64,000 nt of DNA, from the NCBI GenBank assembly GCA_902779575.1, contig CACZBW010000003.1:223039-287038 (forward strand), written 5' to 3'. Source of the DNA: an uncultured Lachnospiraceae bacterium (GTDB lineage: Bacteria; Bacillota; Clostridia; Lachnospirales; Lachnospiraceae). Below are positions 28,485 to 41,649 of this stretch, piece by piece. Below the pieces are notes generated by a model. The model worked only from the letters and a program-made list of their open reading frames with translations, ran no database searches and was not told the origin of the DNA. Each line of letters opens with the position of its first letter. The first letter of the stretch is position 1. Position numbers and translations under genes: made by a program.

Positions 28485-28629
28485 ACGAAGTATGAAGCAA
28501 ACCACAGTAAGGCGGATTTAAGAAGACAGTTTATGTCTGAGCGGTTTATTAAAAACCTGAAATCAGGAACAGTCTTTCACAGCTATGATATACAGCCGGC
28601 ACAGAACGGCAGAACGGAGACAGATTATC

Positions 28630-29979
28630 ATGAATACCTATATCAGCAGTGTTATAAACGGGGTCAAACAGAAATACGCCCATCAGCCTGAATTCTGCCA
28701 GACAGTAGAGGAAGTCCTCTCCTCTCTGGAACCCGTTGTGGAGCGTCATCCGGAGTACGAAAAAGTCGACCTGCTCGGGCGGATGGTAGAGCCGGAGCGT
28801 ATGTTCACATTCCGTGTCGTATGGGAAGATGACAACGGAAACTGGCACACAAACACCGGATACCGCTGCCAGTTCAACGGTGCCATCGGACCCTACAAGG
28901 GCGGTATCCGTTTCCAGAAGAACGTGAATCCCAGCATCATGAAATTCCTGGGCTTTGAACAGACCTTCAAGAACAGCCTGACCGGACTTCCCATCGGAGG
29001 GGGCAAGGGCGGTTCCGACTTTGATCCCACCGGCAGGAGTGACAGCGAAATCATGCGCTTCTGCCAGAGCTTCATGCAGGCATTGTACCGCTATATCGGG
29101 CCGGATACCGACGTTCCCGCGGGCGACATGGGCGTAGGCGGAAGGGAAATCGGATACCTGTTCGGAGAATACCGCAGGCTGAAGGGAAAATTCGAAAACG
29201 GCGTTCTGACTGGCAAGGGCTTCTCCTACGGCGGTTCCCTGATCCGTCCGGAAGCAACCGGGTACGGCGCTGTTTACTATCTCGAGAACGTTCTGAAGGA
29301 TGACGGACAGGATATCAAAGGCAAGACGATCGCCTGTGCCGGTTTTGGCAATGTTACCTGGGGAATCTGCAGGAAGGCTGTAGAGCTTGGGGCAAAGGTC
29401 GTCACGCTTTCCGGTCCCGACGGTTATGTCTACGATCCCGCCGGTGTCTGCACTCCTGAAAAGATCGACTTCCTGGTCGCAATGCGCGCCTCCGGCCGCA
29501 ACAAGGTAAAGGATTATGCCGACAAATTCGGCGTCGAATTCCATGAAGGCGAGAAGCCCTGGGGCGTCAAAGTCGACATCTGCATGCCTTCCGCGATGCA
29601 GAACGATGTACATCTGGAAGAAGCGAAGAAGATCGCAGCCAACAATGTGCGCTATTACATCGAAGTCGCCAACATGCCTACAACCAATGAAGCTCTGCGT
29701 TTTCTGATGGAGCAGCCGGATATGATCGTGGCTCCTTCCAAGGCAGTCAACGCCGGCGGCGTCGCCACATCCGCTCTGGAAATGAGCCAGAACAGTGAGC
29801 GCCTGGTCTGGACAGCGGAGGAAGTCGACAATCAGCTGCATAACATCATGAACACGATCTACAAGAATTCTGTGGACGCCGCCATGAGAAACGACCTGGG
29901 TTATAACCTGGTGGCCGGTGCCAACATCGCAGGTTTCGAGCGTGTCGCGGATGCCATGATGCAGCAGGGAGTGTTCTGA
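28630..29979 (+). CDS. gdhA: NADP-type glutamate dehydrogenase
   Basis: 449 residues from the ATG 28630 with GGAGA upstream; the frame opens at 28585 without a site. Full-length hexameric GdhA: GAIGPYKGGIRFQKNVN, LPIGGGKGGSDFDPTG with the catalytic lysine, DVPAGDMGVGGREIG, RPEATGYGAVYY and the Rossmann segment GFGNVTWG. It makes glutamate from 2-oxoglutarate and ammonia in the cytoplasm. Conserved residues appear intact throughout. The stop is 50 bases before the next gene. Confidence 0.97.
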   Translation: MNTYISSVINGVKQKYAHQPEFCQTVEEVLSSLEPVVERHPEYEKVDLLGRMVEPERMFTFRVVWEDDNGNWHTNTGYRCQFNGAIGPYKGGIRFQKNVNPSIMKFLGFEQTFKNSLTGLPIGGGKGGSDFDPTGRSDSEIMRFCQSFMQALYRYIGPDTDVPAGDMGVGGREIGYLFGEYRRLKGKFENGVLTGKGFSYGGSLIRPEATGYGAVYYLENVLKDDGQDIKGKTIACAGFGNVTWGICRKAVELGAKVVTLSGPDGYVYDPAGVCTPEKIDFLVAMRASGRNKVKDYADKFGVEFHEGEKPWGVKVDICMPSAMQNDVHLEEAKKIAANNVRYYIEVANMPTTNEALRFLMEQPDMIVAPSKAVNAGGVATSALEMSQNSERLVWTAEEVDNQLHNIMNTIYKNSVDAAMRNDLGYNLVAGANIAGFERVADAMMQQGVF

Positions 29980-30029
29980 CCGGGATTCGGGAAATCCTGC
30001 CGGCGGACATTCTGAAGAAGGATACGAAT

Positions 30030-31142
30030 ATGAAATGCTTTGCCATCTGGCCCGAAGATCCCGTGATTGAATCTGCCAGACTGAACGCCATATGGGAACA
30101 TGTCTGCAGAGCTGTCTTCTGCGGTTCCTCCGCTGATCTGACAGTTCTTCATACAATGGAGGAGCTTTCCAGCCTGCTGAAAGAACCGGCAGCCCTTACG
30201 GGCTGCCGGGTACTTTTCATTATTGCGCTCGGGCAGGGCGGAATTAATCTGACCCTCAGCGCCATGATCCGGCTGATCAGGCTGAATCCGGGCTGCATGA
30301 ACAACTCTGCCGCCGCCATGATTGTGGATGGCGAAACAGAACTGTATACCAAATCTGCCGCTTCCGAACTGGCCCTGACTCTTTCCATGGCAGGCTGCGC
30401 TCTGATCGGAAAAAGCCTGGTGGAAGGCACAGGGAGCCTCTATAATTTCACGGTCAGCGCCGGAAACCTGGGTACGGATCTGACTTCTGCATATAAAGCA
30501 GCTGCAGCGGATCTGGTTCACCGGCTGATGAACTTCCGTTTCGTGAGAGGAGCGGTCCCCAGAATTCTCTGCGTGCATTCCTGCAACCAGGCTACTTCCA
30601 ATACCCTGCAGCTCTGGAATTATGTTAAAAATGGCATCCGGGCGGATGCGCAGACCCGCGAAATCTCCCTTCGCAACAAAGATGTAAAAGACTGCGCAGG
30701 CTGCTCTTTTGAGACCTGCATGTATTACAGCAAAAATCTCAGCTGTTTTTACGGCGGTACCATCGTGGAAGAAGTTTATCCCGCACTGGAATGGTGCGAC
30801 CGACTGGTACTGCTGTGCCCGAACTACAACGATGCGCTGAGCGCCAGCCTGACTGCGATGATCAACCGCCTGACCTCTCTTTTCCGGAAAAAACCCTTTT
30901 ACAGCAAGCAGCTCTTTTCGCTGATCGTTTCCGGCTACAGCGGATCGGATCTTGTGGCGAGACAGCTGATTGATTCCCTTTCCATGAACAAGGGCTTTAC
31001 CCTCCCGGGCAGATTCGCCCTTATTGCCACAGCCAACCTTCCAGGCAGCATCGAAAGGATTCCTGATATCCGGGAAAAGGCCCGTGAATTCGGAACATAT
31101 CTCAGCCTGCAGGGAACTGCTTTCACGCAGACTGTAAATTGA
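30030..31142 (+). CDS. Iron-sulfur flavoprotein-like NAD(P)H oxidoreductase with extra N-terminal domain
   Basis: 370 residues, AAGGA six bases upstream. The C-terminal half (about 180-365) looks like a flavodoxin-fold FMN reductase: PRILCVHSCNQATSNTLQLW (phosphate loop), then a cysteine cluster DCAGCSFETCMYYSKNLSC like that of archaeal-type iron-sulfur flavoproteins, then LVLLCPNYNDALSASLTAMI as the flavin-binding middle segment. The N-terminal 170 residues are less clear and resemble a diverged repeat of the same fold (VLFIIALGQGGINLTLS). Such proteins carry electrons with low-potential FMN. It lies between gdhA and the 857-residue gene, probably in one transcript. Confidence 0.72.
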   Translation: MKCFAIWPEDPVIESARLNAIWEHVCRAVFCGSSADLTVLHTMEELSSLLKEPAALTGCRVLFIIALGQGGINLTLSAMIRLIRLNPGCMNNSAAAMIVDGETELYTKSAASELALTLSMAGCALIGKSLVEGTGSLYNFTVSAGNLGTDLTSAYKAAAADLVHRLMNFRFVRGAVPRILCVHSCNQATSNTLQLWNYVKNGIRADAQTREISLRNKDVKDCAGCSFETCMYYSKNLSCFYGGTIVEEVYPALEWCDRLVLLCPNYNDALSASLTAMINRLTSLFRKKPFYSKQLFSLIVSGYSGSDLVARQLIDSLSMNKGFTLPGRFALIATANLPGSIERIPDIREKAREFGTYLSLQGTAFTQTVN

Positions 31143-31182: not shown

Positions 31183-33756
31183 ATGACAGCTTCAGAACGA
31201 ATTCTGACCGGTATCCCTGAGATGGACACCGCCTTTAATTACCTGCGCTCCGGCGATAATGTAGTCTGGCAGACCACGGACCCCGAAGATCTGATCCCCT
31301 TTGCCGAACATTTCGCGCATCAGGCCATACGGGACCGGCATCCCTTTGTATATGTCCGTTTTGCCGGACATGAATCTCTTGTTTCCGAAGCGGAAGGGAT
31401 CCGGGTCCTTGCTTTTGATCTGGATCACAAGTTCGAAGATTTTACTGTACGTCTCTACAATCTGATCAAAAACAGCCCGGCAGATACCTGCTATCTCTTC
31501 GACAGCCTGTCAAGGCTGCAGACCGCATGGTCCACCGATCTGATGATGGCGAATTTCTTTTCCATCATCGGCCCTCTTGTAAACCAGACCGGATGCTGCG
31601 CCTATTATCCCATAATCAGGGGAAGGCATTCTTATTCCACCATCGCCAAGATCCGTGACAATACGCAGGTATTTGTGGATCTGTACCCGGATGGTGAAAG
31701 CTGCTTTATCCGTCCTATGAAGGTCTGGCAGCGCTATTCTCCCACCATGTTCCTCCCACATGTATATGAAAAGAACAGCAGCCGCTTCTACCTTGCGACA
31801 GAAGGCGTCAGCATCAGTCATTTCTACAGCCTGATGAACCGGACCATGGCGCAGAGCGAAGACCAGCACGAGGATTACTGGGACCGTTTCTTCCGGAAAA
31901 CTCAGCTGAAGTATCAGATGGGCGAAGATATTTCAAGGCTGTGTGAGCTGATGTGCAGCGAGATGGTCACGCGTGATGAACATCTGAAGGACATCGTGCT
32001 TAAGAATTTTGCTCCGGAGGATTATTTTGAGATCCGCAGCCATATGGTCGGGACAGGGATGATCGGCGGAAAGGCATGCGGTATGCTTCTTGCCAGGAAG
32101 ATCATCGAGAACTGCTGTCCGGATACCTTTTCCTGTCTTGAGCCCCACGACTCTTTTTATATCGGCTGTGATGTTTTTTATTCCTATATCGTTCACAATC
32201 ACTTCTGGGAGATGCGGGTTAAACAGAAGCAGGAAGAGAATTATTTTTCTCTGGCTCCCGAGATGAAAAAGCTCTTGCAGAGCGGTTCATTTCCCACCGA
32301 TCTGGAGGAACAGTTCCTCCGCCTTCTGGATTATTATGGCCAGGATCCTTTCATCGTGCGTTCCAGCAGTATTCTGGAAGACGGCTTCGGAAATGCCTTT
32401 GCCGGCAAATATGAGTCAGTATTCTGTTCCAATTCGGGAACCCGTGAAGAAAACCTGAAAGAATTTGAAGACGCGATCCGTACTGTCTACGCCAGTACCC
32501 TGAGCATGGGCGCTCTGGAATACCGCAAAAGGCGGGGACTCGAAAAGCAGGACGAGCAGATGGCTCTTCTCATACAGAGAGTCTCCGGTTCACGTCATCA
32601 TCATTATTTTCTGCCGGCTGCAGCGGGCGTCGGTTATTCCATGAGTCCCTATAAATTCGGACAGAATATGGAGGAACGTTCAGGAATGCTGCGTCTGGTC
32701 ATGGGACTCGGTACTGCAGCGGTCGACCGGATGCAGGGATCCTACCCGAGACTTGTCTCCGTCGACGACCCCGCCAGGCAGATCGTTGCAAGTTCCGCCG
32801 AGAGGCATCAGTTTTCTCAGAGAAAGGTCGACCTGATCGACACTCAGAAGCACGGTTTTGCCAGTGTGGATCTGGGCGAGATCGAACCCTGCCTGCCTTA
32901 CTATCTGAAAAGAAAACTCCTGTCCCACGATTACGAAGCCGAACGTTATTTCCGCGATATGGGCTCCAACCGGGATATCTGGTACATTTCCTGCGACGGA
33001 ATTGTCAAAGATCAGTCTCTGATGCAGGAATTCAGCCGGATCCTTTACAGCCTTCAGGAAGAATATAACTATCCGGTAGATATCGAATTTACCATCAACC
33101 TGACAAAAGACGGGAAATACATGATCAACCTCCTGCAGTGCCGCCCTCTGCAGGTTGCAAAGGACTACGAAGTCGTTACACTCCCTGATCAGTCAGACAA
33201 AGATCATATCTTTCTGGAATGCAGCAATGCCTCCATGGGTCTTTCGCGGCAGTTAAAGCTCGACTATGTCGTCATGATCGATCCCATCGGCTACTATCGC
33301 ATGGAGTATAAGGCGAAATATGAGGTCGCCCGTGCGCTTGGTGCCATCAACTGGCATCTTCGCGAGCAGGGAAAAAACCTGATTCTTTTCGCTCCCGGCC
33401 GCATCTGTACCTCCTCGCCGGAGCTTGGCGTACCCTGCTCCTTTGCCGAAATCAGTGAGTTCAATGCCATCTGCGAAATCTCGGAAACGGGTGCGGGATA
33501 TATGCCGGAACTCTCCTACGGCAGCCACATCTTCCAGGACCTGGTGGAAGCCAACATCCTTTACACAGCTGTCAACGACAACAACAGGACACAGACCTTC
33601 GCGCCCGGCAAGCTTGACAACTTTCCCAACCTGCTGGCTGAGATGGACCAGAAGAGTGCCCATCTTCAGGAAATCATCAGGGCCTGCTGTGTTTCGAAAG
33701 CGGACTGGATGCTTTATTACAGCATGCCGGAGGGAAGGATGATCATAACGACCTGA
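31183..33756 (+). CDS. KaiC-like domain plus PPDK-type ATP-grasp domain protein, no swivelling or PEP domain
   Basis: 857 residues, AGGAGA before the ATG. Residues 1-170 look like a RecA/KaiC ATPase (TGIPEMDTAFNYLRSGDNVV, Walker B-like TCYLFDSLSRLQ), but the Walker A loop is gone (QTTDPEDL in its place). Residues 285-655 match the nucleotide-binding N domain of pyruvate phosphate dikinase/PEP synthase: MIGGKACGMLLAR, FIVRSSSILEDGFGNAFAGK and NLLQCRPLQ. The phosphohistidine domain (TGG-TSHAA) and the PEP/pyruvate barrel are absent. The last 200 residues are unfamiliar. It cannot be a normal PEP synthase; it may phosphorylate or pyrophosphorylate another partner. It faces the dehydrogenase-like gene and shares a terminator with it. 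Confidence 0.82.
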   Translation: MTASERILTGIPEMDTAFNYLRSGDNVVWQTTDPEDLIPFAEHFAHQAIRDRHPFVYVRFAGHESLVSEAEGIRVLAFDLDHKFEDFTVRLYNLIKNSPADTCYLFDSLSRLQTAWSTDLMMANFFSIIGPLVNQTGCCAYYPIIRGRHSYSTIAKIRDNTQVFVDLYPDGESCFIRPMKVWQRYSPTMFLPHVYEKNSSRFYLATEGVSISHFYSLMNRTMAQSEDQHEDYWDRFFRKTQLKYQMGEDISRLCELMCSEMVTRDEHLKDIVLKNFAPEDYFEIRSHMVGTGMIGGKACGMLLARKIIENCCPDTFSCLEPHDSFYIGCDVFYSYIVHNHFWEMRVKQKQEENYFSLAPEMKKLLQSGSFPTDLEEQFLRLLDYYGQDPFIVRSSSILEDGFGNAFAGKYESVFCSNSGTREENLKEFEDAIRTVYASTLSMGALEYRKRRGLEKQDEQMALLIQRVSGSRHHHYFLPAAAGVGYSMSPYKFGQNMEERSGMLRLVMGLGTAAVDRMQGSYPRLVSVDDPARQIVASSAERHQFSQRKVDLIDTQKHGFASVDLGEIEPCLPYYLKRKLLSHDYEAERYFRDMGSNRDIWYISCDGIVKDQSLMQEFSRILYSLQEEYNYPVDIEFTINLTKDGKYMINLLQCRPLQVAKDYEVVTLPDQSDKDHIFLECSNASMGLSRQLKLDYVVMIDPIGYYRMEYKAKYEVARALGAINWHLREQGKNLILFAPGRICTSSPELGVPCSFAEISEFNAICEISETGAGYMPELSYGSHIFQDLVEANILYTAVNDNNRTQTFAPGKLDNFPNLLAEMDQKSAHLQEIIRACCVSKADWMLYYSMPEGRMIITT

Positions 33757-33884: not shown

Positions 33885-34967
33885 TTATTCTGAGTAGCCG
33901 CTTTCTTCCAGATTCCTGTACGCCCTCTCCAGCCTTGCAAACAGCGGATCCGGAAGATCCCTGATCTCCCAGTCTGCCCCGTCCGGGGTCGTTCGGTTTT
34001 TTGCTCCGAAATACAGACCGTTCAGATAACAGGCACTGTAATTATATTCCCCGGAAAGGATCGCAAGAACCGTAAAGACAGCCGAGGAATAGGCCGGCGC
34101 GATAAAGGGCTTGAATCCAAGTGCGCGAACCCTGTGATTTGCCGATACCGTCAGATCTGTAAGTTCTTCAGAAAGCGACTCGTCATAATGCTCCGGAAGA
34201 ATGCTGTTTGCAATGACCAGATCCTTCCCATGGGGTCCGAAAGCCCTCCCCTCCTCAAGATATACGGAAAATCTGCTGTCCTGGCGCGCATAATAAGCAG
34301 CTCTCGCATTCATGACGCCGAGTCCGCAGCCCTGGAACTGCAGCGGGTGCAGAGGATGCACAGGCCTGCCGGCTGGCGGCTGCTTTTTCTGTGAACTAAA
34401 CTCCTTCTGCGACTGTGGCTGCTGTACCTGTCCGCACCCTGTCCGGGCGGCAGCCAGACACAGCAGATCCACGGGATCCGAAACCACGATGAACAGCCCG
34501 CGATATCCATCTTCAGCCGCCTGTCCGGCGTAGCTTTCCACGATCGGTTTATTTGCGGCGTACTGTGCCATCCTGACATCGGTAATTCCTGAATTCAGGT
34601 CAGGAACAGAACGGGTGGCACAGAACAAAAACACATCACAGTCAAAGAGTTCTTCCTTCTTCAGCAGCTTAATATGCGGAAAAACTCTCCCCGTAAAGGG
34701 ATCCGCAATCTGCGACAGCTCTGTCTGCATCCGCCGGCACTGCATTTCGTTCAGATCGTACAGGCCAAGTCCGGATATTTTTTCCCCTCCAAGGGTTGTA
34801 AGGCCAATCGCCACATTCTGGCCAACATCTCCCAGACCAGCCATATGGACCCGGACTTTTCTTCCTTCATCCCGGCACAGCCAGCTGATCTCAGGTGCCG
34901 CACCAGTAATTTTCAGCATTTTATCTTTATTCTCGTCCATCATGACGAGATCTGTCAGTTTTTTCAT
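33885..34967 (-). CDS. Lactate/malate dehydrogenase-like protein with glutamine-rich insert
   Basis: 360 residues, GGGAG upstream. Rossmann start VRVHMAGLGDVGQNVAIGL, then VFLFCATRSVPD, FIVVSDPVDLLCLAA (the family normally reads N-P-V-D; asparagine is replaced by aspartate), and GPHGKDLVIANS with the histidine of the catalytic pair. A stretch of about 30 residues (roughly 183-212, rich in Q, S and P) interrupts the fold just before LHPLQFQGCGLGVMNARAAY. Altered catalytic context and the insert suggest a changed substrate or a regulatory role. It lies 21 bases downstream of the giant gene and is probably co-transcribed. Confidence 0.75.
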   Translation of the reverse strand: MKKLTDLVMMDENKDKMLKITGAAPEISWLCRDEGRKVRVHMAGLGDVGQNVAIGLTTLGGEKISGLGLYDLNEMQCRRMQTELSQIADPFTGRVFPHIKLLKKEELFDCDVFLFCATRSVPDLNSGITDVRMAQYAANKPIVESYAGQAAEDGYRGLFIVVSDPVDLLCLAAARTGCGQVQQPQSQKEFSSQKKQPPAGRPVHPLHPLQFQGCGLGVMNARAAYYARQDSRFSVYLEEGRAFGPHGKDLVIANSILPEHYDESLSEELTDLTVSANHRVRALGFKPFIAPAYSSAVFTVLAILSGEYNYSACYLNGLYFGAKNRTTPDGADWEIRDLPDPLFARLERAYRNLEESGYSE

Positions 34968-34988: not shown

Positions 34989-37900
34989 TTATTTCCGGTT
35001 CGTCGGATATTTCAGCCTGTGCAAACGTTTCAGCTGCTGTGCGATCACTGCAGATGTCAGCTCCTGAAGCATGGTTTCGTCGAAATTAATGCTGTCGGGA
35101 TGTCTTGGCTGCGCGATGACCTCTCTCAGGCGCTCTGTAACCAGACGCCTGCCGTACAGGCGGCTGTATTCTTCTTCAAGAGCCATGAAGATATTTCGGG
35201 CGTTGGCAAGACAGACCTCAGACAGATGATAGACTGATGAAAGGTCCACATCCCTTAAAAATCCGGGTACTTCATAAGGAAGAATGGTGTTGACAGATGG
35301 AAGCGATAACGGCGGTGCCGATGATCTTTGTCCATCCTCAGAAGCCCTGCTGCCGTCAATGCCTGCGCTGTCTCCTCCAAGAAACGGATACAGATCTGAT
35401 TCGATGAACCAGGTTTTCATATTCGGAACCGAATAGACCGAACGAATCGGTATCCCACGGGAACAGGCCAGATCTTTCCCTCTTCCCGACAGCACCCCGG
35501 TGATCAGCTGCAGTTCACTTATCCCTGCTTTTTCACAGGATTCCAGAATCTTTTCGGCACGATATCCGCTGTGATACAGATCATCCACCAGGATCAGCGG
35601 CCTGTAAAACGAACGGATCGCGCGGATCTGGAGATCCAGTGAAGCATACCCTGGGAATTCAGAGATGGTAAAATGCTCCAGATCTTCATCGTATACTTTT
35701 TCGGTATCCAGTCCTTTTGTCACCGTCTCCGGAACAACATTGCCCTTCAGGATCTTTCCGAAAGGCACACACATTTTCGGAGGATATTTCAGATCTTCCT
35801 CCCCTTCAGTGCGCGGGTTCTCTTCCGTGATCAGCCTGACAAGGCGATGGTTCATGACGCCTGACTCAAAGCACAGCACCAGCTGCCCCGGAAACATACC
35901 CGTTATGGCCTCCAGAAGAGCCAGATGGGAGGACCTTACAGCCAGGCGGACTTTCAGACTGAGAGAAAGAGGCTCCTTGACAGCTGTGGCCGTGTCATAA
36001 AACAGAACCACGGGATTTCTCAGATCAACGATTCCCACATCCCGGATCCCTGCAACCGGCACGAACCCGTGCGTCTTCAATGTATCTTCATATCTGTGCA
36101 GGCAGAAACAAAGGGCATAGGAAAAGCTGTTTTCCTGGAACCATTCCAGCGCTTCGTTCACGGCCGTCAACCTTTTGTCATCTGTTTCGCTTACCTCTCC
36201 TTCGAGTCGGGTGATGACCGCGACCCTGCCTGAAACCAGACTGCGCAGGACAGATGCCGTCTCCACATCCTGGCATTCCTCATAGAGGTCTCCCTGACTG
36301 ATTTCATGATACCACACCTTTCCGCAGATTCTGCGTTCCTGTTTTACCTCAACAATAGAAATGACACCCGGTGCGATCACCGTCTCAACCGGAAGGCAGA
36401 CTGCAGCCTTCTTATATGCCGGTTCCATGGCATACAGTCCGTAGTTCCGGATATAATTTTCCGCAAGGCTGCTGACCAGGGTGGAGATCTCCCTTCCCTC
36501 GTTTATATTATCCCGGATCATGGTGGAACTGATGCTCTCCAGATGGGAAGGCAGGCGGACAAATATCGGCTTCTCCGACAATTTTCCGCAAATCTCTTTT
36601 TCATTCAGGTCGGAACTGTCTCTGGAAAAGATAATATGAGGCAGAATCTGGACAGAATCTTTTACGGCTTTTTTCCGGTATGCGGATGCATTGACTATCA
36701 CATCGCTGCCGGCCACCAGCGCGGGTTTTTTTCCGTTCATCGCGGCGACCAGCCTGCGGATATCCTCCGGAAAGGCGATATTTACAGGTATTTCCTCCGG
36801 AAACAGATATACATCCTGTATCTGGGCCGTAGACATTTCGATAATCTTCCGGCGAATTTCAAAAGGCTGAGCCCGCTTGGACCAGGAAAACTCATCGGCA
36901 GCCAGATATACCCTAAACCCCATATCCCGGATTTCCTGCACGATCCTTGTATGTCCAAGCGAGAAAGGATCAAAGGTTCCGGGGAAGAAAGCGTACGGAA
37001 GGTCCTGCTCATGCAGAGGCAGTCCGTGACAGGCCTGCTCATAGTCTGAAATAAAAGTATAAATGTAATGCAGTGCAGCAGCGGTAAAATATCGTGTCAG
37101 GCTTCCCCCTTCAAATCCGGTCAGTGACAGAATCTTTCTGGCCATAAAAGAGAAATATAATTCCTTGCGTGCAAGAGAAAATGCCTTTCCGCCGAATAGT
37201 CTCTGGCCTGTAATGTAAAGGCTTTCCCGCGAGATTTCCACCTCGTAATGGGACAGGCCGATACACAGAAGACCCAGCGCTTCTTTCTGCAGGCCTTCAT
37301 CAGCTGAAGCGGGATTTTCAGGAAACTGCTCCAGATATACGCCCACTGTCTCAAGCGCGACAACGGCGGCCTTTTTGCTGCTCCCCGTAATCAGCGTTTT
37401 CAGATGCTCCAGAAAATCATGCTGTTCCATACCCGAAAGACAGAACAGAAGCTTCCCGAGAAAAGACGGTATATATTTTGCAACCGAATACTCGTTAATC
37501 TCAAGCGCTCTTGCTAGCTCCAGAAGGATCTCGTACCGCTGGGGCGCCTTCAGATGCTTCATCACATCCAGAAGATGCTCCCCCGCCTGAAGCCTGTTGA
37601 CGATCCTGCCCCCGAACTGCAGCAGATGAAGCAGATGTGATGCATACTGGTAAACTTCATTTTCATCGCTCCGCTCTTCATAAAGCTTATGCAGGATCTC
37701 AAGATTCAGATACTTGTAGATCCAGGGGATTCCCGCCCTCTGGTTTTCCAGATACAGGCTGGACAGATCATAAACGCCGATCCCTTTCACGCTTGGGATG
37801 CCGAAAAATTCATTGATCCTGGCATCCAGATAGCGCAGGCAGTAGTTTTCCCCGGCAATGGTCTCTTTGTCCATTCCGGTAATACAGGCATAGGATTCTT

Positions 37901-39659
37901 CCGGCCGGAACCCCTGTCGGAGCCATCCCAGCAGGAACCACATGGCTGCTACCCGGATCTCGCCGGTCTTTTTCCGTGCCAGCAGGGAAGCAAAACCACT
38001 CAGGATCCGGATGTCTTCTTCCTCACAGCAGCGGTATGGAATCTGGGAAACGCAATCGATCAGGATGAAAACAATCAGGTCAGAATAAGCCAGGCTGCGG
38101 CACCTTTCGGCATATACATGGATCAGTCTGCTTTTCTGCTGGTCCGGCAGCGCTTTCAGCAGTGTGTCGATGACTGTTTTCAGTGCATAACCTGTCCAGC
38201 GGATCTGACGATCCTGCATATAGGGCTCCGGTGAAAGAATCCGGTCCAGAAAGCTTTCCCATGCATGAATCATGGAATCCCCCAGGTTCGGGCATTCATA
38301 TCCCGACGGGATCTCCTTGGTAAAGCGGATCTCATAATCCGCGATAATTCTGCCTGCGAGCGAAGCCGCCTGTCTGCGGATATCTCCTTCCTGATGTGAC
38401 ATCATACCGCCCAGGAACCTCAGCAGACGTTTTTTCTGTTCCTGCGGAAAATAAACCGAGTATTCTCCTGCTGCTGTCAGGAAAGCCCGTACATGCCTCC
38501 AGTCCTTTTCGCTACGGATACGTTCCAGCAGAGTCCTGAACCGTTCCTCGTCGTTCGAATCATGCATAACGGACAGGTTGAATCGGATCGCCAGGTGTTT
38601 GAAGCAGTCCGTTAATTCCTGTTCGTTCATCAGAACCGGATATTTCTGTCCGACGAAGCTTCCGTCCTCATGAAAGCGGGCACCTGCTTCATCTGCGGCA
38701 CTGAAAACCGGCGTTCCGTCTTCGGTATCGAGCCCTGTGCTGCAGCCCAGAGAAATCAGATAATCCTCAAAATCCTTCAGTTTTGCGTACACTCTCATGT
38801 AGCGCTGCTTTTTGACATCGTCCACATTGTCGAGTTTTGACAGGATCACATCAAAGGATTCTTTGAGGGTCCAGAAATGGATCTGCTCGCTGTGATCCGG
38901 GCCAAAGACACTCTTGACCCGGAAATCAGCGTAAATCAGCAGCAGGCTCTCACAGGAGAGATTGTCCAGTTCCAGATCCCACACAGAATGATTCGAGGCG
39001 ATGCTGCCGATCACCGGAATATTGTACAGGCGGCAGAACTGATAAGTATAGTAATAATGCAGGTACGGCACTCTCCTTGCTTCCGTGGGACGGCAGCCGA
39101 ACTTTCCCATATCATGGACCATGGCAGCTGCCGACATCAGGCCCGGATCCACACTCACTTCGGAATGGAGGAGCTGCCTTACCATATGCATCGCGACATG
39201 ATGCACGCCTGCCACATGTCCCAGCGTATTGTACGGAGTGCACACCCGGGACAGGCGGAGAAAAGCATACACAAAACCTTCATGAAAGCTTTTTTCAAAG
39301 CGGCTGTATTCCTCCCGGATCCCGCAGTATGCTTCTTCCTCCGGCTGCATAAGGCGGAAATCTCTCCTCGCGTCAAAAGGAATCTCAGCCTGTTCACGTT
39401 CAAAAAGCCTGTTCAGTACCTTCAGATAAAACTCGACAGCTTTCCGGCGCTCAGTAACCTTCTCCACTTTAAAATTTCCCGGAAAAAAGAGGGATTGCAG
39501 AAAGGAAAAACTGTATTTCAGCCAGTCTTCAGGCGGATCCGCGCACAGGCTGTTCATCGCCGGCAGACAGATCTCCAGCACTTTTTTCAGGTCTGTTCCG
39601 GTCTGCGGAATTCTGTATTCCTCTGTTATTCTCCTGATCAGTTTATTATGATCCGTCAT
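34989..39659 (-). CDS. Giant HD / helical-repeat / nucleotidyltransferase / phosphoribosyltransferase fusion
   Basis: 1,556 residues from ATG 39659 behind GGGAGGAAAAG. Order: an HD hydrolase domain (about 130-290; VHHVAMHMVRQLL, MVHDMGKFG, SNHSVWDLELDN); a long helical region (350-880) of HEAT-like repeats; a cytidylyltransferase-fold domain of the NaMN/pantetheine-phosphate adenylyltransferase type (887-1085; FFPGTFDPFSLGHTRI, with serine instead of the first H/T of the HxGH motif, and ISSTMIRDNI as the C-terminal nucleotide motif); an acyltransferase-like stretch (1100-1230); and a phosphoribosyltransferase domain with RPLILVDDLYHSGYRAEKIL at about 1356. No signal peptide or membrane segment: cytoplasmic. 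Domains suggest making and breaking nucleotides such as NAD, but no known enzyme has this order. Confidence 0.85.
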   Translation of the reverse strand: MTDHNKLIRRITEEYRIPQTGTDLKKVLEICLPAMNSLCADPPEDWLKYSFSFLQSLFFPGNFKVEKVTERRKAVEFYLKVLNRLFEREQAEIPFDARRDFRLMQPEEEAYCGIREEYSRFEKSFHEGFVYAFLRLSRVCTPYNTLGHVAGVHHVAMHMVRQLLHSEVSVDPGLMSAAAMVHDMGKFGCRPTEARRVPYLHYYYTYQFCRLYNIPVIGSIASNHSVWDLELDNLSCESLLLIYADFRVKSVFGPDHSEQIHFWTLKESFDVILSKLDNVDDVKKQRYMRVYAKLKDFEDYLISLGCSTGLDTEDGTPVFSAADEAGARFHEDGSFVGQKYPVLMNEQELTDCFKHLAIRFNLSVMHDSNDEERFRTLLERIRSEKDWRHVRAFLTAAGEYSVYFPQEQKKRLLRFLGGMMSHQEGDIRRQAASLAGRIIADYEIRFTKEIPSGYECPNLGDSMIHAWESFLDRILSPEPYMQDRQIRWTGYALKTVIDTLLKALPDQQKSRLIHVYAERCRSLAYSDLIVFILIDCVSQIPYRCCEEEDIRILSGFASLLARKKTGEIRVAAMWFLLGWLRQGFRPEESYACITGMDKETIAGENYCLRYLDARINEFFGIPSVKGIGVYDLSSLYLENQRAGIPWIYKYLNLEILHKLYEERSDENEVYQYASHLLHLLQFGGRIVNRLQAGEHLLDVMKHLKAPQRYEILLELARALEINEYSVAKYIPSFLGKLLFCLSGMEQHDFLEHLKTLITGSSKKAAVVALETVGVYLEQFPENPASADEGLQKEALGLLCIGLSHYEVEISRESLYITGQRLFGGKAFSLARKELYFSFMARKILSLTGFEGGSLTRYFTAAALHYIYTFISDYEQACHGLPLHEQDLPYAFFPGTFDPFSLGHTRIVQEIRDMGFRVYLAADEFSWSKRAQPFEIRRKIIEMSTAQIQDVYLFPEEIPVNIAFPEDIRRLVAAMNGKKPALVAGSDVIVNASAYRKKAVKDSVQILPHIIFSRDSSDLNEKEICGKLSEKPIFVRLPSHLESISSTMIRDNINEGREISTLVSSLAENYIRNYGLYAMEPAYKKAAVCLPVETVIAPGVISIVEVKQERRICGKVWYHEISQGDLYEECQDVETASVLRSLVSGRVAVITRLEGEVSETDDKRLTAVNEALEWFQENSFSYALCFCLHRYEDTLKTHGFVPVAGIRDVGIVDLRNPVVLFYDTATAVKEPLSLSLKVRLAVRSSHLALLEAITGMFPGQLVLCFESGVMNHRLVRLITEENPRTEGEEDLKYPPKMCVPFGKILKGNVVPETVTKGLDTEKVYDEDLEHFTISEFPGYASLDLQIRAIRSFYRPLILVDDLYHSGYRAEKILESCEKAGISELQLITGVLSGRGKDLACSRGIPIRSVYSVPNMKTWFIESDLYPFLGGDSAGIDGSRASEDGQRSSAPPLSLPSVNTILPYEVPGFLRDVDLSSVYHLSEVCLANARNIFMALEEEYSRLYGRRLVTERLREVIAQPRHPDSINFDETMLQELTSAVIAQQLKRLHRLKYPTNRK

Positions 39660-39681: not shown

Positions 39682-39710
39682 AAAGACCAGGTACCCCGCA
39701 CCTGGTCTTT
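39682..39710 (-). terminator. Intrinsic terminator of the transketolase operon
   Basis: Perfect 11-bp stem AAAGACCAGGT / ACCTGGTCTTT with a 7-base loop; on the minus strand it runs into CTTTTTCC. It lies between the transketolase genes and the giant gene. Confidence 0.75.
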
Positions 39711-39768: not shown

Positions 39769-40707
39769 TTACTTTCTGCTTATTGCTTTCAGGATTTTTT
39801 CTTCAATTCCCGCGGCGTTCAAACCATAATGATCCATAAGCTCCTGCGGCTGTCCGGACTGCCCGAAACTGTCATTGACCGCCACCATCTCCATCGGAAC
39901 CGGACAGTTCAATGCCAGACATTCTGCTACAGCGCTTCCCATACCTCCGTAAATCTGATGCTCTTCTGCCGTCACCACCGCGCCGGTTTCTTTTGCGGCT
40001 CTTACCACAGTCTCCACATCAAGCGGCTTAACTGTATGCAGATCATAGATCCTGACGGAGATTCCCTGCTCTGCCAGTTTTTCTGCCGCATTGCATGCCT
40101 CGTAAACCATAGCGCCATTAGCAAAGACCGTAACATCTGTTCCGTCCTTTACAATCCTTGCCTTCCCCAGTTCAAAAGGTGTGGATTCATCTGTCACGAC
40201 CGGAACCGCCTCACGACCAAAACGAAGGAAGCATGGTCCGTTTACCTTTGCAACCGCAAGTGTCGCTTTTCTCGTCTCTTCCGCATCACAGGGTACCACT
40301 ACAGTCATATTCGGAAGCACCCGGGTAATGGCGGTGTCTTCGAGAGCCTGATGTGTAGCGCCGTCAGGACCTACGGAGATCCCTGCATGAGCGCCGCCGA
40401 ACTTGACATTCAGATTATTATAGCATACCGTGGTCCTGATCTGATCCCAGGCTCTGCCTGCCAGAAATACACAATAAGTCGAGCAGAACGGAACCATACC
40501 GGACAAGGCCAGCCCAGCTGCCGTTCCTACCATATCCTGCTCCGAGATCCCCATATCCAGGAACTTATCCGGATATTTCTCTCTGATCCATACAGTCCTC
40601 GTAGATTTTGCCACATCCGCGTCCAGGACCATCACTTTGCTGTCCTCTTCAGCACACAGTTCAAGCAGGGCCTTTCCATATCCGTCTCTCATTGGGATCT
40701 TTTCCAT
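39769..40707 (-). CDS. Transketolase, C-terminal subunit
   Basis: 312 residues. Pyrimidine-binding domain of thiamine-diphosphate enzymes: RDGYGKALLELC, DADVAKSTRT, FLDMGISEQDMVGTAAGLAL with the catalytic glutamate, then AHAGISVGPDGATHQALED, and a transketolase C-terminal domain (IYDLHTVKPLD, EEHQIYGGMGSAVAE). It pairs with the N-terminal subunit encoded 14 bases upstream to interconvert pentose and other sugar phosphates. Split transketolases are common in Firmicutes and archaea. Confidence 0.94.
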   Translation of the reverse strand: MEKIPMRDGYGKALLELCAEEDSKVMVLDADVAKSTRTVWIREKYPDKFLDMGISEQDMVGTAAGLALSGMVPFCSTYCVFLAGRAWDQIRTTVCYNNLNVKFGGAHAGISVGPDGATHQALEDTAITRVLPNMTVVVPCDAEETRKATLAVAKVNGPCFLRFGREAVPVVTDESTPFELGKARIVKDGTDVTVFANGAMVYEACNAAEKLAEQGISVRIYDLHTVKPLDVETVVRAAKETGAVVTAEEHQIYGGMGSAVAECLALNCPVPMEMVAVNDSFGQSGQPQELMDHYGLNAAGIEEKILKAISRK

Positions 40708-40721
40708 TTTCCAAGTCCTCC

Positions 40722-41537
40722 TTATCTGTTTACTTCTTCCAGAGCCTGTGCCAGCTGATCCGCATTGGGGGCGGTACCGTGCCAGTTGCAGTCATTTTCC
40801 ATAAACGATACGCCCTTGCCCTTAACCGTATTCGCGATCAGAACAGTAGGCTTTCCTTTAAATGCAGCTGCCATGGCAAATGCTTTCAGCACAGCTTCCA
40901 GGTTATGACCGTCAACTTCGATCACGTTCCATCCAAAGGCATGCCATTTTTCAACCAGATCTCCCAGATCTTTAATATCTTCGGTAGTGCCATCCAGCTG
41001 AACATGGTTGTAATCCACAATCGCGCAGACATTGTCCAGCTTATGCTGGGCTGCGGTCATAACGGCTTCCCAGATCTGTCCTTCCTGAAGCTCGCCGTCT
41101 CCCAGGAGGCAGTAAACCCTGCTGTCTTTATTCTGCTTCTTCAGGCCGATCGCGATTCCGTTTGCCACAGAGAGCCCCTGGCCGAGGGATCCGGAGGAGC
41201 AGTCAAGACCCGGAGTGCTCATCTTATGCGGGTGACCCTGCAGAATACTGCCGAATTGTCTGAGCGTCTTCAGTTCTTCTGTCGGGAAAAACCCCTTTCT
41301 TGCAAGAACGCTGTAAAGAACCGGCGCGACATGACCTTTTGAAAGGATAAATCTGTCCCGGTCCTCCCAGTCGGGATTTTCGGGGTCTACATGCATCACA
41401 TCTCCAAAATACAGAGCTGTCATGATCTCTGCCGCAGAAAGAGAGCCGCCCGGATGTCCGGATCCGGCTTCGTGGACCATGGTCAGTATATCCATCCGTA
41501 CTGTTCTGCACATCGTCAGCAATTCATTCAGGGTCAT
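40722..41537 (-). CDS. Transketolase, N-terminal subunit
   Basis: 271 residues from the ATG 41537, seven bases after GGAGGAGGA. Diphosphate-binding half: SGHPGGSLSAAEIMTALYF, DRFILSKGHVAPVLY, LGQGLSVANGIA, and the ThDP motif GDGELQEGQIWEA ... NVCAIVDYN. Together with the downstream gene it makes one transketolase (pentose phosphate pathway, non-oxidative branch). Confidence 0.95.
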   Translation of the reverse strand: MTLNELLTMCRTVRMDILTMVHEAGSGHPGGSLSAAEIMTALYFGDVMHVDPENPDWEDRDRFILSKGHVAPVLYSVLARKGFFPTEELKTLRQFGSILQGHPHKMSTPGLDCSSGSLGQGLSVANGIAIGLKKQNKDSRVYCLLGDGELQEGQIWEAVMTAAQHKLDNVCAIVDYNHVQLDGTTEDIKDLGDLVEKWHAFGWNVIEVDGHNLEAVLKAFAMAAAFKGKPTVLIANTVKGKGVSFMENDCNWHGTAPNADQLAQALEEVNR

Positions 41538-41620
41538 TGTGTCCTCCTCCCATAACGAACATATCATAACGATTATCTCAACAGGCAGCCTGTATGTTCC
41601 GGCTGCCGGCTTCTGATTTG

Positions 41621-41649
41621 ATCTTAGCATCAGATAAATATAAAGTAAA
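41621..41649 (-). promoter_or_regulatory. Promoter of the transketolase operon
   Basis: TTTACT and TAAGAT on the minus strand, spacer 17, about 85 bases before the start codon. A small hairpin GGCAGCC / GGCTGCC (41584-41607) lies in the leader. The remainder of the gap up to 41960 has no gene except the insertion-sequence remnant. Confidence 0.6.

Follow-up and report, generated by a model that had tools for sequence, protein, structure and literature searches.

The window analysed here, a 64,000-nucleotide stretch of DNA from an uncultured Lachnospiraceae bacterium, encodes a 1,556-residue protein (F0; positions 34989-39659, minus strand) that belongs to a real, widespread and apparently unstudied family of multi-domain proteins. 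From its open reading frame, Pfam matches and a family alignment (A1), F0 is predicted to be a fusion of an HD domain, a HEAT-like part, a NadD-like nucleotidyltransferase (NT), a GNAT-like stretch and a phosphoribosyltransferase (PRT)-like domain. No description of this architecture was found in the open-licence papers searched. Translation confirmed the size and position given in the original prediction: the frame is intact, begins with ATG and has no internal stops, and an in-frame GTG at 39701, upstream of the ATG, would add 14 residues if used. A search of the window's own genome with F0 gave one match. Copies identical to F0 (100%) are present in L001 over the full length and in L003 over residues 1-1133, and L002 holds a copy with 84% identity; these three loci lie in metagenome-assembled genomes labelled uncultured Blautia sp. 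or uncultured Clostridiales bacterium. The frame is far beyond chance, because alignment A1 (n = 30) contains 29 other full-length homologues with 31-46% identity to F0 of the window. An assembly artefact was ruled out by the homologues in many genomes and by a named carrier, Acetoanaerobium noterae.

F0 was detected in 13 of the 19 genomes of the window's genus, in none of 18 other genomes of its family, and in none of the nine same-family genomes listed for the class-level sample. In the class-level sample, it was present in 25 of 291 genomes from 18 genera, the window's own included. These 25 matched at 5.3e-73 or better, the copies of G128, G236 and G298 being truncated at contig ends; in all, 46 genomes gave a match, and the 21 whose matches were weak (1.6e-5 or worse) and lay around the NT region were dropped. 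The phylum-level sample contained F0 in 8 of 398 genomes at 1e-30, six of them in further genera. The family thus occurs in at least 24 genera, which contradicts a restriction of the fusion to one assembly, an outcome that the original prediction had allowed for. A plasmid collection yielded one F0 record, from A. noterae; a 2.63 Mb record of this species labelled as a plasmid (L133, NZ_CP154629.1) is probably the chromosome. No match to F0 was found at 1e-5 among 50,697 phage records, and a scan of viral contigs gave one short NT-like match.

The HD domain (residues 110-320; positions 38700-39332, minus strand) is well supported by sequence comparison. F0 of the window matches Pfam HD weakly (0.079, below the cut-off), and 23 of the 30 members of A1 match it, the best at 2e-6. 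The six putative metal ligands His148, His182, Asp183, His201, His224 and Asp245 (alignment A8) are invariant in all 38 homologues of the motif table, which comprises the 30 sequences of A1 and eight further ones from a total of 23 genera and A. noterae, the truncated L083 and L084 being excluded. Their arrangement (H...HD...H...H...D) is the pattern predicted for the dinuclear type. Dinuclear YqeK is reported to have six HD ligands in the same order (PMC8177086). A profile of the domain matched the PDB entries 1xx7 (0.01) and 4mcw (0.036). None of the 18 NCBIfam families that the 30 members of A1 matched at 0.01 was YqeK; the HD-type models among them were NF045665 (16/30), TIGR00295 (8/30) and HDIG (8/30). 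The following helical scaffold (residues 330-880; positions 37020-38672, minus strand) is moderately supported as HEAT-like, with Pfam HEAT matches in 13 of the 30 members of A1 (best 1.3e-5) and none in the window protein itself.

The NadD-like NT (residues 884-1084; positions 36408-37010, minus strand) is likewise well supported by Pfam, NCBIfam, PDB profiles and motifs. Pfam CTP_transf_like matched the window protein at 7.1e-9 and 29 of the 30 members of A1. Among the NCBIfam models NadD is the nearest: TIGR00482 matched the window protein at 8.7e-11 (42.2 bits) and again 29 of the 30 members (best 3e-14), and the scores of the window protein and of the listed F0 copies (31-59 bits) lie below the curated cut-off of 112.45 bits. 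The NT profile found NadD-like structures in the PDB, with 3h05 as the best match (4.1e-8). NadD proteins carry the motifs GxFDPxHxGH and SSTxIR, and the corresponding stretches of the window protein are GTFDPFSLGH and SSTMIR. The serine in the first HxGH position, pointed out in the original prediction as a departure from His or Thr, is present in the window protein; it turned out to be a trait of the family (Ser in 31 and Thr in 7 of the 38 homologues) that also occurs in 3h05. The motif regions are intact in 36 of the 38 homologues, the exceptions being L073 and L074. A family-specific DEFSW motif (DEFSWSK in the window protein) is invariant at a place where NadD has a different pattern. 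A separate NadD over the cut-off is encoded in 29 of 30 F0 carriers (the exception is G116), so F0 likely has another role or acts on another molecule, and it was ruled out as the housekeeping NadD. The same count makes plain NAD salvage less likely among the roles first envisaged for F0, which were nucleotide salvage, sensing and the production of a signalling nucleotide.

The type I PRT-like domain (residues 1225-1445; positions 35325-35987, minus strand; loop ILVDDLYHSGYR) is moderately supported. Pfam Pribosyltran matched 12 of the 30 members of A1 weakly (best 0.0071) and left the window protein itself unmatched. The assignment rests mainly on a ranking test, in which a profile of the segment placed 30 PRT references from nine genomes above 496 background ORFs with an AUC of 0.979; the references are interrelated and the background consists of uncurated longest-ORF picks. 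Three other F0 segments ranked against the PRT references gave AUC values of 0.43-0.72. In hhalign, the segment scored 4, 33 and 42% against three motif-sorted groups made from 27 of the 30 reference loci, and seven other segments scored about 1% or less. A PDB profile search with the segment gave no significant match. The usual PRPP loop reads DDxxx[TS]Gx[TS]. Its core is kept in F0, with Asp1359 and Gly1365 each present in 37 of the 38 homologues, and the last position, usually Thr or Ser, is Arg in 37 of 38, so that the loop departs from the usual pattern and PRPP use by this domain is uncertain. Of the PRPP-using domain in the original prediction, the PRT-like profile and the Asp...Gly core therefore stand. 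The predicted order of HD, HEAT-like, NMNAT-like and PRT-like parts was borne out at the respective strengths given above, with more than two of the folds supported.

The stretch between the NT and the PRT-like domain (residues 1090-1224; positions 35988-36392, minus strand), which had no place in the original prediction, is tentatively GNAT-like. hhalign gave 53% over 97 columns against 15 references, which were picked from 30 loci by length and readability, and 13-60% depending on the choice of ends; the seven other F0 segments reached at most 0.3%. The call is tentative because neither the HMM ranking (AUC 0.71 for GNAT versus 0.72 for PRT references) nor the PDB profile search (no GNAT, only AlfA at 0.9) confirms hhalign. 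No acetyl-CoA loop motif was seen by eye in this stretch. AlphaFold models of window residues 1085-1556 and 1225-1445, each run with one identical and one 81-84% identical extra sequence, had mean pLDDT values of 36.2 and 39.0, respectively. The C-terminal stretch (residues 1446-1556; positions 34992-35324, minus strand) is conserved, with invariant columns in A1, and no family match was seen for it.

Directly downstream of F0 lies the gene of F1 (360 residues; positions 33885-34967, minus strand), a lactate/malate-dehydrogenase-like protein (Pfam Ldh_1_N, 2.2e-6). Ldh_1_N matched 24 of the 25 members of alignment A3 at 0.01. Arg132, Arg222 and His246, which we take to be the substrate arginines and catalytic histidine of lactate dehydrogenase (LDH), are invariant in all 25. 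The catalytic His of LDH pairs with an Asp, and the Asp expected at this place is not conserved in F1. In the window and its relatives within the genus, F1 is about 100 N-terminal residues shorter than most A3 rows, and the window's F1 has an extra Gln/Pro-rich insert. A second partner, F2 (370 residues; positions 30030-31142, plus strand), is an FMN-reductase-type protein (Pfam FMN_red, 9.4e-18) with the invariant cysteines Cys222, Cys225, Cys230 and Cys239 in alignment A4 (n = 22).

In the class sample (n = 291), F1 was found in 24 and F2 in 23 genomes at thresholds of 1e-15 and 1e-20, respectively, and none of these genomes lacked F0. Partners were missing in two F0 genomes with F0 on a short contig: G236 had neither F1 nor F2, and G298 had no F2. 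In the phylum sample (n = 398), F1 occurred in exactly the eight F0 genomes. For F1, these statements rest on the class and phylum samples and, in the window's genus, on F0-positive genomes; for F2, they rest on the class sample, the window's genus and single genomes of the phylum sample. F0, F1 and F2 are closely lined up in many loci and stand in a row in A. noterae; in G663, F1 and F2 are on a contig other than that of F0. Within the window's genus, F2 was found in one of the 19 genomes, the window's own (G000), while 13 carry F0, which means that F2 is not indispensable. F1 is the most faithful partner of F0.

An 857-residue protein (F4; positions 31183-33756, plus strand), with which a phylogenetic profile had been suggested at the outset, contains a Pfam PPDK_N domain at residues 293-672 and has no match to the PEP-utilising domain. 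F4 was present in 5/5 F0-positive and 0/5 F0-negative genomes tested in the window's genus, and weaker relatives were found in 2 of 23 genomes outside it. It thus tracks F0 only inside the genus and was ruled out as a universal partner; wide co-occurrence with F0 is seen for F1 and, beyond the window's genus, for F2. F4 may have replaced F2 in the window's genus, where G000 has both. By eye, the N-terminal part of F4 resembles a RecA/KaiC domain without Walker A. A second F4 copy is located at G000:C2:122937-125480.

Trees of the 19 members common to F0, F1 and F2 (from 25 aligned F1 and 22 aligned F2 sequences) were compared. Eight of the 14 well-supported splits of the F0 tree recur in the F1 tree and also in the F2 tree, and the supported conflicts with the F0 tree number zero for F1 and one for F2. 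The additional F0 copies of G214 and G257, L073 (7827-12722) and L074 (7197-12113), have lost the NT motifs and retain the HD ligands and the PRT loop. They form one clade in the F0 tree, neither has F1 or F2 beside it, and both appear to be pseudoenzyme-like duplicates. In L126, the NT motifs are intact although F1 and F2 sit on another contig.

Upstream of F2, 50 bases away and in the same orientation, lies a gene (positions 28585-29979, plus strand) for an NADP-specific glutamate dehydrogenase (GDH; NF006929, 645.9 bits with a cut-off of 536). The order in the window is GDH(+), F2(+), F4(+), F1(-) and F0(-), and the gap between F2 and F4 is 40 bases. Of 40 loci examined, 17, from four families, have glutamate-linked genes near F0; loci of one family are not independent, and the category was chosen after the genes had been seen. 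By our rough estimate, a glutamate-type gene is expected in a 20 kb stretch in a few per cent of cases per lineage. The 40 loci are the window, L053-L084, L126-L131 and L133; the glutamate-gene queries had no match in the other 23 stretches, several of the loci being cut by contig ends. GDH is near F0 in 8/8 loci of the window's genus and, arranged differently, in 6/11 loci of family f45. Five of the six GDH proteins scanned were NADP-specific over the cut-off, and that of L066 was below the cut-offs. The GDH proteins of L066 and L067 have 33-34% identity to that of the window, the L067 gene is about 4.4 kb from F2, and the GDH match in L081 is a partial one at a contig end. In f47, glutamate synthase parts and an AmtB ammonium transporter lie between F0 and F1-F2 in 2/4 loci. 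In the single locus of f26, F0 starts some 120 bases after the end of a same-strand gene for an NADPH-dependent glutamate synthase (TIGR01316, over the cut-off), and ahead of this synthase come a DHODB_Fe-S_bind protein and a pyruvate:ferredoxin oxidoreductase.

Other genes were noted in these surroundings. Upstream of F0 on the same strand are split genes that look transketolase-like by eye (39769-41630), with relatives near F0 also in L053, L054, L070 and L082. A 535-residue frame antisense to the GDH gene (28549-30156) is likely spurious. A kinase-PPPase gene and a three-domain PPDK-type gene stand beside F0 in L131 (12357-17579, G714).

As our best explanation, which we consider possible and hold tentatively, F0 makes and removes an NAD-like or other nucleotidylated metabolite that serves NADP-linked glutamate metabolism. 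The NadD-like domain would transfer a nucleotidyl group, for which AMP with ATP as its source is the likeliest candidate, to a phosphorylated metabolite and so give an NAD-like dinucleotide or a similar product, and the HD domain with its six YqeK-like ligands would hydrolyse this product, or miscopied forms of it, on the same chain. The PRT-like domain would make or bind a ribosyl-phosphate acceptor, and the HEAT-like part would hold the domains and partner proteins. F1, with a 2-hydroxyacid-dehydrogenase fold, and in most families F2, a flavin protein with a Cys motif, would act as redox partners, using or reading this product on behalf of NADPH-linked glutamate and ammonium metabolism. We infer the substrates, the product, the direction and the glutamate link from several observations taken together: the HD ligands kept in 38/38 and the NT motifs in 36/38 homologues, the co-occurrence with F1 and F2, the separate NadD, the glutamate-gene neighbours, and the loss of NT motifs but not HD ligands in L073 and L074, which lack F1 and F2 beside them. 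In addition, a single chain carrying both NadD and HD has already been described as a maker paired with its corrector (PMC9426524). Counted against this explanation are the atypical PRPP loop, the presence of F2 in 1/19 genomes of the genus, the NT scores below the NadD cut-off, the unmatched YqeK model, the one well-supported F0-F2 tree conflict, the intact NT of L126 with F1 and F2 elsewhere, the 23/40 stretches without a glutamate-gene match, the distance in L067 and the low GDH identity of L066 and L067. A more far-reaching version, which we regard as doubtful, sees in F0-F1(-F2) a system of Clostridia-type bacteria, so far undescribed, for a nucleotide cofactor or signal. The PRT and NT would build, and the HD domain destroy, a new NAD-like dinucleotide that serves the LDH-like enzyme and tunes NADPH-dependent glutamate formation.

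Known systems resemble F0 in part. Mycoplasmas have a NadD-YqeK fusion, in which the HD part is proposed to correct errors of NadD (PMC9426524); like F0, it combines a NadD-type adenylyltransferase and a metal-dependent HD hydrolase on one chain. F0 differs from this fusion in that the HD domain comes first, in its length of 1,556 residues with HEAT-, GNAT- and PRT-like parts, in the NT score below the NadD cut-off, in the partner genes F1 and F2, and in the separate NadD of its carriers. NadM, with a Nudix domain that cleaves NAD, is another dinucleotide maker and breaker on one chain (PMC9503650); in it, Nudix takes the place of HD and the scaffold and PRT are absent. The uncharacterised NadD-like protein of 3h05 (VPA0413) shares SLGHK, with Ser in the HxGH position as in F0, and a W-x-K stretch, but is a chain of 177 residues. 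PRT-like proteins reportedly adjoin ATP-grasp genes in operons linked to tellurium resistance; those operons differ from the F0 loci in their partner genes, and their PRT families are absent among the 25 families listed for the members of A1.

The most interesting rival, although in our view an unlikely one, is a protein-modifying regulator of nitrogen status similar to GlnD or GlnE. The NT would add and the HD domain remove a nucleotidyl group on a protein (GDH, PII or F1), with the PRT- and GNAT-like parts as ligand sensors and the HEAT-like part for docking. GlnD and GlnE also combine opposed transfer and removal on one chain in a nitrogen context, and the pairing of NT and HD with a large scaffold in F0, as well as the GDH, glutamate synthase with AmtB, and NADPH-dependent glutamate synthase genes near F0 in four families, would suit such a role. 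The atypical PRPP loop and the unseen acetyl-CoA motif would fit sensor domains. However, the nucleotidyltransferase of GlnD and GlnE is of the Pol-beta type, a different fold, while that of F0 is NadD-like; a search at 0.5 did not find the Pol-beta type in the window protein, and it is missing from the 25 families listed for the 30 members of A1. Moreover, NadD-like enzymes act, to our knowledge, on small molecules.

It is also rather improbable that F0 serves F1 as a scaffold for regulation or sensing, with PRT- and GNAT-like parts that bind nucleotides without catalysis and with activity in only one of the NT and HD domains. The PRPP loop changed across the family, the duplicates that lose NT motifs and keep HD ligands, and the faithfulness of F1 all point this way, but the intact NT motifs in 36/38 and HD ligands in 38/38 homologues count against it. 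Less likely still is that F0 backs up or repairs NAD metabolism, through a spare NMN/NaMN adenylyltransferase, a correcting HD domain and a salvage PRT. NadD is the nearest NCBIfam model of the NT, which is also close to NadD-like PDB proteins, and NadD-HD fusions with proofreading are reported (PMC9426524). Against this reading stand the separate NadD over the cut-off in 29/30 carriers and the invariant DEFSW where the pattern of NadD differs, and it leaves the tie to F1 unexplained. A phage-defence or mobile system, suggested by the HD and HEAT parts known from defence proteins and by the patchy distribution (13/19 genomes of the genus), is very improbable and was rejected, since PADLOC gave no match at 0.01 for F0, F1, F2 or F4, the phage records had no F0, and the neighbours are metabolic.

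If the product is indeed a new dinucleotide or nucleotide signal, as our best explanation would have it, anaerobic bacteria would gain a further cofactor or messenger, one tied to their handling of ammonia and glutamate. Even otherwise, F0 is a multi-domain protein that occurs in at least 24 genera and conserves its HD and NT motifs, and the partner genes together with the named carrier open it to direct testing. Together with its glutamate-gene neighbourhood, F0 hints at a cofactor or signal for nitrogen metabolism.
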